Assembly: GCF_026017845.1 (NCBI RefSeq)
Contig: NZ_CP100416.1
Coordinates: 1,393,945-1,457,944, forward strand
Direction: 5' to 3'
Length of the DNA stretch: 64,000 bases
DNA from: Amycolatopsis mediterranei
GTDB taxonomy: Bacteria > Actinomycetota > Actinomycetes > Mycobacteriales > Pseudonocardiaceae
Each line of letters opens with the position of its first letter. Position 1 is the first letter of the stretch. Position numbers and translations under genes: made by a program. The notes under the pieces were generated by a model, which did not search any database, was not told the origin of the DNA, and saw nothing but the letters and a program-made list of their open reading frames with translations. Shown here piece by piece: positions 13,733 through 59,232 of the stretch.

Positions 13733-13785
13733 TTCGCGCTTCGGGCTTTGCTGTGGTCCGGTGAGTGCGGTCGCGCTCGCGGAGC

Positions 13786-14130
13786 GCGGTTGTGCTGTGG
13801 CGGTGCGTGGAACTGGTGCCGTTGGCGCGCGTGGTCGCGCTGTGGGCGCGGTTGCTGGGGGCGGCGCGCGGCGGGGTCGGGCGCCGCTGGATGCGCTCGG
13901 TGGTGCTGCGGACCGCGGTTGTGTCGTGGCGGTGCGCGGTGGAGCAGGTGCGGCTGGTGTGCGCGGTCGCGCTGTGGAGCGTGGTCGCGCGGTGATGCGC
14001 GGTGGGGTCGGGCGCCGCTGGTTGTGCGCGGTGGTGCTGCGGACTGCGGTTGTGTCGTGGTGGTGGGCGGTGGGGCCGATGCCGCGGGGTGTGGGCGGTC
14101 GCGCTGTGGAGCGCGGTTGTGCCGTAGTGG
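13786..14130. repeat. ~66-bp degenerate tandem array in a gene-free stretch
   Basis: The 700-base stretch 13740-14437 holds no convincing gene. It contains at least six degenerate units anchored by GCGGTTGTG-like sequence at 13786, 13848, 13915, ~13981, 14046 and 14113 (spacing 62-67 bp), with shared pieces such as GGGGTCGGGCGCCGCTGG and GGTGGTGCTGCGGAC. All six frames give low-complexity Arg/Ala/Gly/Val or Pro/His/Arg protein, so open frames here are by-products of the repeat. The sequence 14140-14437 is similar low-complexity GC-rich DNA. Confidence 0.7.
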
Positions 14131-55405: not shown

Positions 55406-55627
55406 GTGCACATCAATTGGGGTTCCCTCGGTCTCGTCTTCGTCGTCGCGCTGGCTTCGGTCGTCGTGCTGACGAGCCTCTTCTCCTTCGGCGTGGTCGG
55501 GCTATCGCAGCGCGAATCGGCGCGTGAGGCGGGTGGCTCGGGCAGCGGGCCGCTGGCCGGCGCGGTCGTCTGCTTCGCTGCCTGCCTGGCGATCATCGGC
55601 TACGGGATCTACTTGATCGTCGCCTGA
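55406..55627 (+). CDS. Small two-helix membrane protein next to pit
   Basis: 73 residues with two membrane segments (LGLVFVVALASVVVLTSLFSFGVVGL and AGAVVCFAACLAIIGYGIYLIVA) joined by a Ser/Gly/Arg loop. The GTG at 55406 has GAGGAG within 5 bases, overlapping the end of pit, so the two are one operon. Small proteins like this commonly follow pit in actinobacteria, and it may be a subunit or regulator (inference). Confidence 0.82.
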   Translation: MHINWGSLGLVFVVALASVVVLTSLFSFGVVGLSQRESAREAGGSGSGPLAGAVVCFAACLAIIGYGIYLIVA

Positions 55628-56355
55628 ACGCGGTCCCGGAACCCTTCGGGCAGGTCGGCGAGCATCGGTTTGAGCGTGGCGCGCCGCGCCTCGCCCAGGT
55701 GGGTCAGCAGGTCGAGCGCCGGCGTCCAGAGGTCTTCGTCGGCGCTCGCCGCCGTGACCAGCCGGCCGAGCCGGTGCGCCGGGAGCAGGCCGACGACGTG
55801 GTCGACGCGGCGCTTGTCGTCGAGCACGAACGCGATCCGCAGCAGCGACGGGTCGTCGATCCGGTTCAGGGCCTGCTGCACGGTGGGGTCCGGCAGGTGC
55901 CCGACGAACCGGCCGAGGGTGATCCAGTCCTCCTTGTGCGCCAGTTCGCCGGCGACGGCGAGGACGGTGTCCAAGGGGATCCGGCTGATGATCGCGCTCG
56001 CGCGCCGCGGGTCGAGCTCCGCGGCCACGTCGGCGAGGAAGCGGGGGCTGAGCCGCTTGGCGACGTCGACCCCGCGCCCGACGTCGACCAGCCCGGCGAT
56101 CCGGGCGCAGAGCAGCGGGCCGAACACCTTCTCGGCGATCTTGGCGAGCACCCCGACGGGCACGACCCGCGCGGCCAGGGCCATCCGCTGCAGCGCGGCG
56201 GCGTTGGCGTCGAACAGCGTGTCGGTGACCTGCCCGCGGAAGGCCTGCAGGTCGTCGGCGTCGACACGGCCGAGGTAGGCCAGGCGCGCGGGCTCGACGT
56301 CGAGGACGCGGGCCAGCTTGAGGATTTCGGCCTCGGCGGCGTAGTTCTCTGTCAC
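55609..56355 (-). CDS. Conserved hypothetical protein, helical (MgtE-N-like)
   Basis: 248 residues, no membrane segment. It is helix-rich with regularly spaced patterns (DANAAALQRMALAARVVPVGVLAKIAEKVFGPLLCARIAGL; LDPRRASAIISRIPLDTVLAVAGEL; LPDPTVQQALNRIDDPSLLRIAFVLDD) resembling the superhelical MgtE N-terminal-like fold. Function unknown. GTG 56355 overlaps the stop of the upstream 69-residue gene (GTGA). The 3' end overlaps the convergent small membrane gene by 19 bp. Confidence 0.75.
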   Translation of the reverse strand: MTENYAAEAEILKLARVLDVEPARLAYLGRVDADDLQAFRGQVTDTLFDANAAALQRMALAARVVPVGVLAKIAEKVFGPLLCARIAGLVDVGRGVDVAKRLSPRFLADVAAELDPRRASAIISRIPLDTVLAVAGELAHKEDWITLGRFVGHLPDPTVQQALNRIDDPSLLRIAFVLDDKRRVDHVVGLLPAHRLGRLVTAASADEDLWTPALDLLTHLGEARRATLKPMLADLPEGFRDRVQATIK

Positions 56356-56561
56356 AGGCCGACCGCCTTCCGGACCGCGCCGCGCAGCAGCGCGGGAACG
56401 TACAGGAGGCCTTCTTCGCCCGCTTCGGCGAGCGCTTTCGCCTGCCGCCTGCGCGCGTCGCGCAGCGCGTCGGCGAGGTCCTGCCGCTCGTGCTCTTCGA
56501 GGGCCTCGATGCCTTCGGGGAGGTAGCCGCCCAACTGGTCGGCGAGTGTGCGCTCGGCCAT
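56352..56561 (-). CDS. Small hypothetical protein, helical
   Basis: 69 residues: MAERTLADQLGGYLPEGIEALEEHERQDLADALRDARRRQAKAL..., then YVPALLRGAVRKAVGL. It looks like a helical hairpin with a charged first half. Translationally coupled to the 248-residue gene downstream (GTGA overlap), so the two probably act together. No family recognised. The 42-bp palindrome array lies directly upstream. Confidence 0.7.
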   Translation of the reverse strand: MAERTLADQLGGYLPEGIEALEEHERQDLADALRDARRRQAKALAEAGEEGLLYVPALLRGAVRKAVGL

Positions 56562-56639
56562 GGTGGATCATCATGCAACACCGCGGGCGCCACCGGGCGG
56601 ATATGCGCATCAAGACGTCCACCGTCCGTGTCGGCGGCG

Positions 56640-56890
56640 GTGCTGCCCAAGTGCTCCGTGTTGTGAGCACTGCTCTCGTGCGGCGACCGGCAGTGCTCAG
56701 CTTCGAGAGCACTGCTCTCGCGCGATGGGCGAGCGATGCTCGATATCGAGAGCACTGCTCACGCATCGCGGCGCACAACGACCGGCGTCGAGAGCACTGC
56801 TCACACCCGGCCCGGCGTGGTGCTCTGAAACAAGAGCACTGCTCACGCGCCACTGCGAGCGATGTTCAACTTCGAGAGCACCGCTCACGG
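56640..56890. repeat. Six-unit 42-bp array of palindromic GAGCACTGCTC sites
   Basis: The 11-bp palindrome GAGCA-C-TGCTC starts at 56666, 56707, 56750, 56792 and 56834, and a variant GAGCACCGCTC at 56876. Spacings are 41, 43, 42, 42 and 42 bp. The second copy extends to a 17-bp palindrome (CGAGAGCACTGCTCTCG). Most copies share TCGAGAGCACTGCTCACGC; the ~22 bases between are variable but often hold GCGAGCGATG and end in CTT or TAT before CGAGAG. The 41/43 steps break any reading frame, so it is not coding. It fills the region between two divergent transcription units (56561 leftward, 56987 rightward). Confidence 0.85.
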
Positions 56891-56973
56891 AGACGCCGAG
56901 ACTGGAGCCACTGCAGGGCGTGGACGTGCTGAACGGTTGACTTTCGGCAGTGGTCGGCCGCCGTCACGCCTTG

Positions 56974-56979
56974 TAGCTT
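56974..56979 (+). promoter_or_regulatory. -10 box of a leaderless kinase promoter
   Basis: TAGCTT followed by 7 bases and GTG 56987. Confidence 0.6.
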
Positions 56980-56986
56980 CGATTTC

Positions 56987-58561
56987 GTGCGGACGGTGAC
57001 TAAGCGCAGGTGGCAGACGGCGCTCGACGTCGCCGTCGGGCTGTTCCTCGCGTTCATCGTCGTCGCGGGCACGCTGGAGAGCCGGTCGTACGGAGAGCTG
57101 GCCGGTGGTCTCGTGGTCGTGGCCGGTTCGGTCGCGACGGCCCGGCGGTACCCGGCCGTCTCACTCGGCATCGCGCTGAGCGGCGCGCTGGCCGTGCCGT
57201 TCCCGTACGGCAACCGGGTGCCCGCGTGGGTGATCTTCGTGCTGGTCGCGATGAGCTACCAGGCCGGGCTGCGGATGCCGCGCGCCCGCCCCGGGGTCCT
57301 GACCGGGACGGCCGTCGCGGTCGTGGGCCTCCCGGTCGCACTGGTCTTCGGCACCGACGGGCTGGGCGACTGGGCAGAGCTGGTTGCGATCCTCGTCTTC
57401 GCCGGGCTGTCGCCGTGGCTGCTCGGCCGGTACGTCCGGGTCCGCGGCGAGCTCGCCCGCACCGGCTGGCGCCGGGCCGAGGAGATGGAGAGCAGGCAGC
57501 AGCTGGTCGCCGAGCAGGCCCGGCTGCGGGAGCGGGCGCGGATTGCGAGCGACATGCACGACTCGCTGGGGCACGAGCTGAGCCTGATCGCCGTCCGCGC
57601 CGCCGCGCTGGAGGTCGCGGGCGGGCTCGGCGACGCCCAGCGCGACGCCGCCGCACAGCTGCGGACCAGCGCCGCGACGGCGACCGAGCGGCTGCGCGAG
57701 ATCATCGGCGTGCTGCGCGAGGACGCCGCGCCGGTCGAGCCGGTGCAGGGCGACCTCGGTGCGCTGATCGCCAGGGCGCGGGCGTCCGGGCTGCTCATCG
57801 AGTCCACAGTGGACGTCGCGGAGGTGCCGCCGATGGTGGCCCGCGCGGCCTACCGCGTGGTGCAGGAAGCGCTGACGAACGTGGCGAAGCACGCGCCGGG
57901 CGCCGCCGTGACGGTCCGGGTGACCAGCGCCGGCGCGCGGACCGACGTCAGCGTGGTCAACGCGCCGCCGCCCGCCGGGCCGCTGCCCGGGACCGCGTCC
58001 GGGCACGTCGGGCTGATCGGCCTGCGGGAGCGCGTCCGGCTCGTCGGCGGCACACTGCGGGCCGGGCCCGACGCCGGCGGGTTCGCCGTCACCGCGACGC
58101 TGCCGCACGGCGCCGCGCCGGTCGAGCGGCCGGAGACCGCCCCGGCTGACGAGGAGGCCGGGCTGTCGACGTCGGCACGGGCCCTCGAACTGGCCCGGCG
58201 CGATGTGCGGCGCAGCCTGATCCAGGCCGTCACCGTCCCGCTCGTCCTGTTCGGGCTGGTCCTGGCGGTCGCCGGGATCGCGTTCCTCTACCAGTGGAAT
58301 TCCTCGGAGCTGTCCACCGGGGTCTACGAGCGGCTGCGGATCGGGCAGCCGCGGACCGACGTGGCGCCGCAGCTGCCGGAGAACCAGCGTGACGCCCGGC
58401 CGCTGCGGAGCGAGCCGCCGCGGCCGGCCGTGCCCGGGGTCGCCTGCGAGTACTACGGCACCGGGCGGTCGTGGCTCGACAACGACTACGCCGCCTACCG
58501 GCTGTGCTTCGCCGATGGGATGCTGGTGGCGAAGGACTGGTTCGCCGAGGGGGCACCGTGA
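56987..58561 (+). CDS. Sensor histidine kinase with an unusual C-terminal membrane and extracytoplasmic domain
   Basis: 524 residues. The N-terminal membrane region (~10-150, 4-5 segments) is followed by HisKA_3 with His191 in RARIASDMHDSLGHELSLIA and an HATPase_c domain (VVQEALTNVAKHAPGAAVTV, GLIGLRERVRLVGG, to ~375). After it come an extra membrane segment (~413-433, VPLVLFGLVLAVAGIAFLYQW) and a ~90-residue outside domain (YERLRIGQPRTDVAPQLP..CEYYGTGRSWLDNDYAAYRLCFADGMLVAKDWF) with two Cys, resembling the SmpA/BamE-like fold. Its stop overlaps the response regulator start (GTGA). Confidence 0.92.
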   Translation: MRTVTKRRWQTALDVAVGLFLAFIVVAGTLESRSYGELAGGLVVVAGSVATARRYPAVSLGIALSGALAVPFPYGNRVPAWVIFVLVAMSYQAGLRMPRARPGVLTGTAVAVVGLPVALVFGTDGLGDWAELVAILVFAGLSPWLLGRYVRVRGELARTGWRRAEEMESRQQLVAEQARLRERARIASDMHDSLGHELSLIAVRAAALEVAGGLGDAQRDAAAQLRTSAATATERLREIIGVLREDAAPVEPVQGDLGALIARARASGLLIESTVDVAEVPPMVARAAYRVVQEALTNVAKHAPGAAVTVRVTSAGARTDVSVVNAPPPAGPLPGTASGHVGLIGLRERVRLVGGTLRAGPDAGGFAVTATLPHGAAPVERPETAPADEEAGLSTSARALELARRDVRRSLIQAVTVPLVLFGLVLAVAGIAFLYQWNSSELSTGVYERLRIGQPRTDVAPQLPENQRDARPLRSEPPRPAVPGVACEYYGTGRSWLDNDYAAYRLCFADGMLVAKDWFAEGAP

Positions 58562-59232
58562 TCAAGGTCGTGCTGGCCGACGACGAAGCGATGATGCGGG
58601 CGGGAGTGGCGGCGATCCTCGCCGCGGACCCGGGCATCGAGGTCGTCGCCGAAGCCGCCGACGGCCGTTCGGCTGTCTCCCAGGTCCTCGCCACGCGCCC
58701 CGACGTCGTGCTCCTGGACATCCGGATGCCGGGTCTCGACGGCCTCGGCGCGGCCGCCGAGATCCGGCGGCTGCTGCCCGCGACCGGCGTGATCATGCTG
58801 ACCACGTTCGGCGAGGACGAGTACATCGAGCGCGCCCTCGGCCTCGGCGCGGGCGGGTTCCTGCTCAAGTCGGGCGACCCGCGCGAGCTCCTCTCCGGTA
58901 TCCACGCCGTCGCCGGCGGGGCCGCGTTCCTCTCGCCGAAGGTGGCCCAGCGGGTGATCGCCCGGCTCTCCGGCGGACAGCTGGCACGCGCCGCCGCGGC
59001 CCGCGAGCGGATCGCCGCGCTGACCCCGCGCGAGCGGGAAGTGCTGACGCTGCTGGGCTCGGGACTGTCCAATGCGGACATCGCGGCGAAGATGTTCGTC
59101 GTCGAGGGCACGGTGAAGGCACACGTGAGCACGATCCTGAACCGGCTCGGCGCGAAGAACCGGGTCCAGGCGGCGATCACGGCGTACGAGGCGGGACTGG
59201 TCGGCGGAGACGCGGCGGCGTCCACCCCGTGA
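58558..59232 (+). CDS. NarL-family response regulator
   Basis: 224 residues. Receiver domain with acidic pair LADDEAMM, phospho-acceptor Asp54 (VVLLDIRMPG), Thr in MLTTFGEDEY and Lys in FLLKSGDP. C-terminal LuxR helix-turn-helix is LTPREREVLTLLGSGLSNADIAAKMFVVEGTVKAHVSTILNRLGAKNR. Start GTG 58558 overlaps the kinase stop. It is convergent with, and overlaps by 56 bp, the monooxygenase gene. Targets are unknown; the promoter-proximal 42-bp array is one candidate to test. Confidence 0.95.
   Translation: MIKVVLADDEAMMRAGVAAILAADPGIEVVAEAADGRSAVSQVLATRPDVVLLDIRMPGLDGLGAAAEIRRLLPATGVIMLTTFGEDEYIERALGLGAGGFLLKSGDPRELLSGIHAVAGGAAFLSPKVAQRVIARLSGGQLARAAAARERIAALTPREREVLTLLGSGLSNADIAAKMFVVEGTVKAHVSTILNRLGAKNRVQAAITAYEAGLVGGDAAASTP

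Follow-up and report, generated by a model that had tools for sequence, protein, structure and literature searches.

The stretch analysed here (64 kb, hereafter the window) carries an array of six strong palindromes, five of them GAGCACTGCTC and one GAGCACCGCTC, between a gene for a 69-residue protein and the gene for a sensor histidine kinase. The array stands where the interior of a gene for dienelactone hydrolase (DLH) has been lost; the first 11 and the last 6 codons of that gene are left. We refer to this place, between the 69-residue gene and the kinase, as locus B, and its genes and features are as follows.

55609 to 56355, reverse strand: 248-residue gene within a longer open frame, no family found
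56352 to 56561, reverse strand: 69-residue gene, no family found
56603 to 56635, forward strand: 5'-end remnant of the DLH gene, MRIKTSTVRVG (MRIETSTVRVG in the relative G025)
56646 to 56656: half-palindrome CCCAAGTGCTC, 19 bp upstream of site 1
56665 to 56675: strong palindrome 1, GAGCACTGCTC
56688 to 56698: weak palindrome CGGCAGTGCTC, 19 bp upstream of site 2
56707 to 56717: strong palindrome 2, GAGCACTGCTC
56731 to 56741: weak palindrome GAGCGATGCTC, 19 bp upstream of site 3
56750 to 56760: strong palindrome 3, GAGCACTGCTC
56792 to 56802: strong palindrome 4, GAGCACTGCTC, without a weak partner upstream
56815 to 56825: weak palindrome GCGTGGTGCTC, 19 bp upstream of site 5
56834 to 56844: strong palindrome 5, GAGCACTGCTC
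56857 to 56867: weak palindrome GAGCGATGTTC, 19 bp upstream of site 6
56876 to 56886: strong palindrome 6, GAGCACCGCTC
56920 to 56940, forward strand: 3'-end remnant of the DLH gene, VDVLNG and stop (VDTLKG and stop in G025), recognized by eye
56987 to 58561, forward strand: sensor histidine kinase, HisKA_3
58471 to 59232, forward strand: LuxR/NarL-type response regulator, given as the longest ORF, its real start probably lying further in

The starts of the six strong palindromes are separated by steps of 42, 43, 42, 42 and 42 bp. A first-pass annotation, made from the sequence alone, had placed six palindromes at 56640-56890, and all six were located, in a phase absent from shuffled sequence; of the steps it listed (41, 43, 42, 42, 42), the later four are correct and the first is off by one. 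It overlooked a second element of the repeat: on their upstream side, five of the six strong sites have a weaker palindrome or half-palindrome at a distance of exactly 19 bp. Exact matches to GAGCRSYGCTC in the window are confined to the six sites of the array, which form a single chain with steps of 41-44 bp, and among 200 dinucleotide-preserving shuffles of the window the longest chain at this phase was two, three in phase being found in 0 of 200. Sites with at most one mismatch are no more numerous than in the shuffles (19, against 18.9 on average); the array departs from chance in its phasing and exactness. TRF at its default threshold did not report the array, so its units are not simply fresh copies, and a repeat search found four overlapping copies at 63% or better; what is alike among the repeats is mainly the palindromes, not the spacers. 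The earlier description, a set of operators and not a repeat within coding sequence, is supported. Elsewhere in the window, positions 13767-14117 hold a tandem repeat with a unit of 131 bp, 2.7 copies and 81% matches.

Comparison with relatives indicates what stood at locus B without the array. We defined a close group of 28 of the 80 genomes of the genus, window genome included, by a kinase identity of at least 82%. In 15 of the 28, a DLH gene lies between the 69-residue gene and the kinase and is matched over nearly its whole length, the Pfam DLH family having been assigned on the G025 gene; in G046 the match runs only from residue 13, so the start of that gene may be damaged. Upstream of the kinase, none of these 15 genomes has a palindrome, exact or with one mismatch. 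Palindromes occur in 12 of the 13 genomes without a DLH match, and the other (G105) shows an apparent plain internal deletion. Among more distant genomes, 37 were readable in this stretch, and 7 of these gave a DLH match, full or partial, so the gene is probably old at locus B. No exact palindrome was found upstream of the kinase in any of these 37; in two, one or two sites with one mismatch are present. The statement that the array fills the whole divergent promoter region is right as to position only, since the stretch is the remains of the DLH gene.

The genome, a single contig of 10,605,955 bp, has a second array at 5.872 Mb (locus A), between two convergent genes, an ABC-F-like ATPase, whose best NCBIfam match falls just under its cut-off, and a neighbour that reads by eye as a sugar-transporter permease. 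A divergent-promoter role is supported neither by this convergent setting nor by the DLH-bearing relatives without palindromes. Counted on both strands, GAGCACTGCTC occurs exactly 19 times in the genome (five in each array, one in a promoter shared by a TetR-family and a reductase-like gene, eight elsewhere), and the reversed control 11 times. The exact pair pattern GCTC-N8-GAGCRSYGCTC occurs 15 times, four in the window array, ten in the second array and one in the TetR promoter, against 0 for the reversed control. Within the close group, a GNAT gene is missing at locus A in 16 of the 28 genomes, all 16 of which have palindromes there, and an array is found in 3 of the 12 that keep the gene. 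Small ORFs beside locus A, first taken as a conserved gene, appear by eye to be antisense to the permease gene. In G059 an insert of about 12 kb splits the locus A array (L064:3579-16029) and carries, by eye, an IS21-type transposase pair and a SARP-like regulator.

Across the genus, a three-site tandem pattern was found in 17 of the 80 genomes, against 0 for the control. Exact sites are present in the close group at locus A in 19 of the 28 genomes, at locus B in 12 and at either locus in 20, with 1-18 sites per array at locus A and 2-11 at locus B. In the 52 genomes outside the close group, exact sites are absent both from locus A, readable in 47 of them, and from locus B, readable in 37; some have one or two sites with one mismatch. 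The first-pass annotation had proposed a search of the genome and its relatives, and had reasoned that arrays scattered at random, without positional conservation and with neither protein binding nor a transcript, would speak for a simple expanding repeat. The arrays are not scattered in this way: two loci recur across the species group with their position conserved, yet a few species also carry arrays at other positions, namely G021 (A. anabasis), G105 (A. eburnea) and G114.

These additional arrays differ in setting. In A. anabasis, one (L046:7889-8403) runs mostly in 45-bp steps through the 5' portion of the coding sequence of a gene that by eye is LCP-like, where it encodes an in-frame ESTALxSEHP-type repeat, and another (L047:8370-8851) lies inside a long ORF that we named NRPS-like by eye. 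In G114 a third array (L198:8237-8836), with 21 sites at no more than one mismatch, begins at the stop codon of a gene that by eye is MobA-like. A separate sequence, GCTCAGGGGATAGAGCACCGCTC, occurs exactly once per genome in eight of nine genomes searched (G102, G110, G111, G113, G030, G117, G003 and G044) and is absent from the window genome.

Arrays accompany gene loss at both loci: 12 of 13 genomes with loss against 0 of 15 without at locus B, and 16 of 16 against 3 of 12 at locus A. On supported branches there are four independent comparisons at locus B, three in the same direction and one without a difference, and three at locus A, of which an average of 2.1 go the same way. As phylogenetically independent cases are too few for significance, we regard the link between gene loss and array as suggestive and unproven. 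A single clade of array carriers is rejected (AU p = 1.2e-5 for locus B and 2.2e-5 for locus A). Additionally, G025 and G044 have the DLH gene although they are placed amid array carriers, which may reflect re-acquisition or repeated replacement.

The repeat unit was read from the two loci in the 28 genomes, that is, from 56 regions with 209 exact sites that had enough flank. Neighbouring sites with at most one mismatch are separated by 19 bp in 88 cases, 42 bp in 57, 23 bp in 30, 43 bp in 23 and 24 bp in 19, such that the period of 42-43 bp is made up of 19 plus 23-24 bp. Several of the smallest arrays consist of four sites in the order weak-N8-strong-N12/13-weak-N8-strong, and the species share both the alternation of strong and weak sites and the 19-bp step. 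Read from the 110 sites with GCTC 8 bp upstream, the strong site has the longer form CGA-GAGCACYGCTC-WC. Variation is greater in the spacer than in the core: across six similar units, 96 of 390 compared spacer positions differ, against 5 of 165 in the 11-bp core, making the core about eight times less diverged; these units, five from G050 and one from the window genome, were chosen by eye for similar spacers, and the contrast has a Fisher p of 0.027 on columns in a small test that was the better of two. The other comparison was aligned on the cores, so its difference is partly built in, and for G058 and G113 at locus B it showed almost none (0.31 versus 0.34).

The sole place outside the arrays where the genome has the exact 19-bp pair pattern is the promoter common to a TetR-family gene (contig positions 4611989-4612657, reverse strand; Pfam TetR_N and TetR_C_33) and a divergent reductase-like gene. 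The latter resembles by eye a homologue in G071, on which the F420H2_quin_red match was scored. An orthologue of the TetR gene is present in 78 of the 80 genus genomes; since the three-site pattern occurs in 17 of the 80, the regulator does not need arrays. We read the promoters of the 30 best-scoring of these 78, which are best matches and not a sample: an exact site lies at about position 45 in 30 of the 30 and at about position 98 in 28, and a 19-bp pair (at most one mismatch) is found in 28 of the 30, array-free genomes included. G005, G037 and G105 keep the palindromes of this promoter, although next to them no reductase start like that of the other promoters can be recognized.

The promoter sites also accompany the regulator in other genera. 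G071, from another family of the same order, has a like gene pair with two exact sites and a 19-bp companion with two mismatches, as read by eye. Orthologues with 55-61% identity have upstream sites in four of four genomes outside the genus, one Actinokineospora and three Streptomyces, which are no random test because they were picked through their match to the array pattern. Upstream of tetR, Actinokineospora has five exact sites at steps of 19, 19, 36 and 19 bp; S. albus has three at steps of 19 and 19 bp, the middle one with one mismatch, and further 19-bp pairs; S. triticirhizae has two exact sites 53 bp apart, the same distance as in most Amycolatopsis promoters. Streptomyces sp. SID3343 has nine sites (L348:60-700), five of them exact, and five of the nine, two of these exact, follow at steps of 39, 39, 38 and 38 bp, which is twice the 19-bp spacing.

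The nearest solved relatives of the TetR protein are Rv1816 (5d1r) and SCO4313 (2oi8). Rv1816 binds lauric and palmitic acid, and palmitic acid reduces its DNA binding, according to the available part of a review (PMC6463170); no operator sequence of Rv1816 is given in the available parts of that review or of PMC10312376. Searches for literature on SCO4313, or on an operator of a TetR protein with a deazaflavin-dependent nitroreductase, returned nothing. A search on the palindrome itself returned only work unrelated by title. Within these searches, which covered few subscription papers, the element appears undescribed.

We judge, with slightly better than even confidence, that the array is a multi-copy operator cluster of this conserved TetR-family repressor, encoded elsewhere in the genome. 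The candidate repressor fits the array better than the other proteins we considered, as judged from sequence, spacing, orientation and conservation. Each 42-bp repeat, equivalent to four helical turns, holds one strong palindrome, in most cases with a weaker companion at 19 bp. The promoter of the repressor gene itself has this same element with identical orientation and spacing, and the repressor would be expected to bind the window array. GAGC-N3-GCTC is a simple sequence that other TetR-type proteins may bind too, and the window genome encodes a second protein of this type with 47% identity.

Because relatives have no promoter in the DNA where the array lies, a function is most simply pictured as that of a repressor sink, in which the bound array would lower free repressor by titration or buffering. 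This is a more tentative step, and taken by itself we consider it rather doubtful. A fuller version, which we would put forward as conjecture and think similarly unlikely, is that the arrays form a natural sponge: in a group of Amycolatopsis species, two fixed loci, each with a gene lost in many of these species, would have turned into phased arrays of strong/weak operator pairs, whose species-specific length would tune free repressor and the sensitivity of the reductase promoter. Distant loci might also be drawn together by the arrays through the protein that they share.

The simplest null reading is a neutral, selfish satellite derived from an operator, with functionless units copied by slippage and unequal recombination into expendable DNA; we regard it as possible, though on the evidence unlikely. 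It would account for the near-constant period with copy number that varies widely among relatives, many of which lack arrays, and for the placement of arrays in the gutted DLH gene and, at locus A, at the missing GNAT gene in 16 of 19 carriers. The extra A. anabasis arrays inside long open frames and the roughly 12 kb of DNA that splits one array are also in line with such a satellite. However, similarity between units does not extend over the whole period, even similar units keep their core far more constant than their spacer, and the strong/weak alternation and 19-bp step persist from species to species.

A protein-bound roadblock or terminator of transcription between neighbouring genes is improbable. 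Of the 11 locus A carriers whose permease end was located, 10 have the start of the last site 12 nt ahead of that end, array-free G003, G005 and G037 have by eye an ordinary hairpin before it, and the window array folds better than shuffles on both strands (z = -6.1 and -4.6). Nevertheless, palindromes in series will fold well with or without such a role, a scan gave one terminator-like match against 0.4 expected, and at locus B there would be little read-through to stop, as the outer neighbours diverge.

The same folding scores could suggest a structured RNA of serial hairpins, an idea raised in the first-pass annotation, and by eye a weak and a strong palindrome can pair in a stem of up to 9 bp with a loop of 8 nt. 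Yet in 110 weak/strong pairs the complementary combinations number 48, 66 and 47 against about 53, 64 and 46 expected (worked out by hand from the counts, assuming independence), and the 83 of 110 that could pair at the first variable position when G-U is allowed follow from base composition. The absence of covariation between the palindromes of a unit points to separately read DNA sites rather than paired RNA arms and makes an RNA very improbable. Rfam gave no match at gathering score for 55500-57500, and one at chance level.

We give least credence to operators of the adjacent two-component response regulator, as the first-pass annotation had suggested: the array does adjoin this system in 12 of the 28 close-group genomes, but relatives keep the kinase without an exact site upstream (0 of 15 DLH-bearing genomes, in which the DLH gene directly precedes it, and 0 of 37 readable distant genomes), and the palindromes also turn up at a second locus unrelated to this system and in the TetR promoter. 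A CRISPR array is disfavoured: such arrays have long near-identical repeats of more than 20 bp and unrelated spacers, whereas here about 15-17 bp are conserved and some spacers are related to each other. The seven neighbouring window ORFs, to which the search for cas families was confined, gave none. Dispersed REP/BIME repeats do not fit an exact pair pattern that occurs at three loci only, rather than in many dispersed copies.

Operator sites normally number one or two per promoter; here, an operator pair would appear as a satellite in place of lost genes. The operators of TetR-family repressors are likewise near-palindromes in the promoter of regulator and divergent gene, conserved across genera, but in our case the site is repeated six times, and up to 18 times in relatives, at about 42 bp, far from tetR and away from promoters. 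As far as the available parts of PMC12371093 and PMC7826281 describe them, chromosomal DnaA titration and synthetic decoys also use binding sites away from the regulated promoter, by which the amount of free regulator could be reduced; the Amycolatopsis arrays would involve another regulator, titration by them is only putative, and their length varies strongly between species. Prokaryotic satellites, on the part of PMC6749651 available, share tandem units of near-constant length and variable copy number, whereas our array is silent in TRF at the default threshold and conserves mainly its palindromes. Related species offer a ready-made series of array lengths for a direct test of whether natural decoy arrays set transcription-factor activity. 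The locus also cautions that a stretch placed like a promoter may instead be the graveyard of a gene.

Scattered palindrome pairs in G003, G111, G113 and G117 were considered as a second regulon and rejected on the stretches read, where they lie inside very long ORFs. Pairs at 19 bp were present in eight of ten fetched stretches from these genomes (L300-L304 and L307-L309), all within such ORFs, and because these are by eye apparent polyketide synthase genes, we attribute the pairs to coding coincidence of a protein motif. A search of genome_contigs with the array pattern matched 33 stretches, 14 from Amycolatopsis and 19 from others, 12 of the latter being inspected by eye. Several of these, among them matches in Oerskovia, Akkermansia, Armatimonadetes and a Methylococcales symbiont, look by eye like in-frame or unrelated repeats. 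Four stretches of viral_contigs match the two-site pattern. Among the 12 inspected stretches, 19-bp pairs were seen in Streptomyces sp. SID3343 and Actinokineospora, and an 18-bp variant in S. albus.
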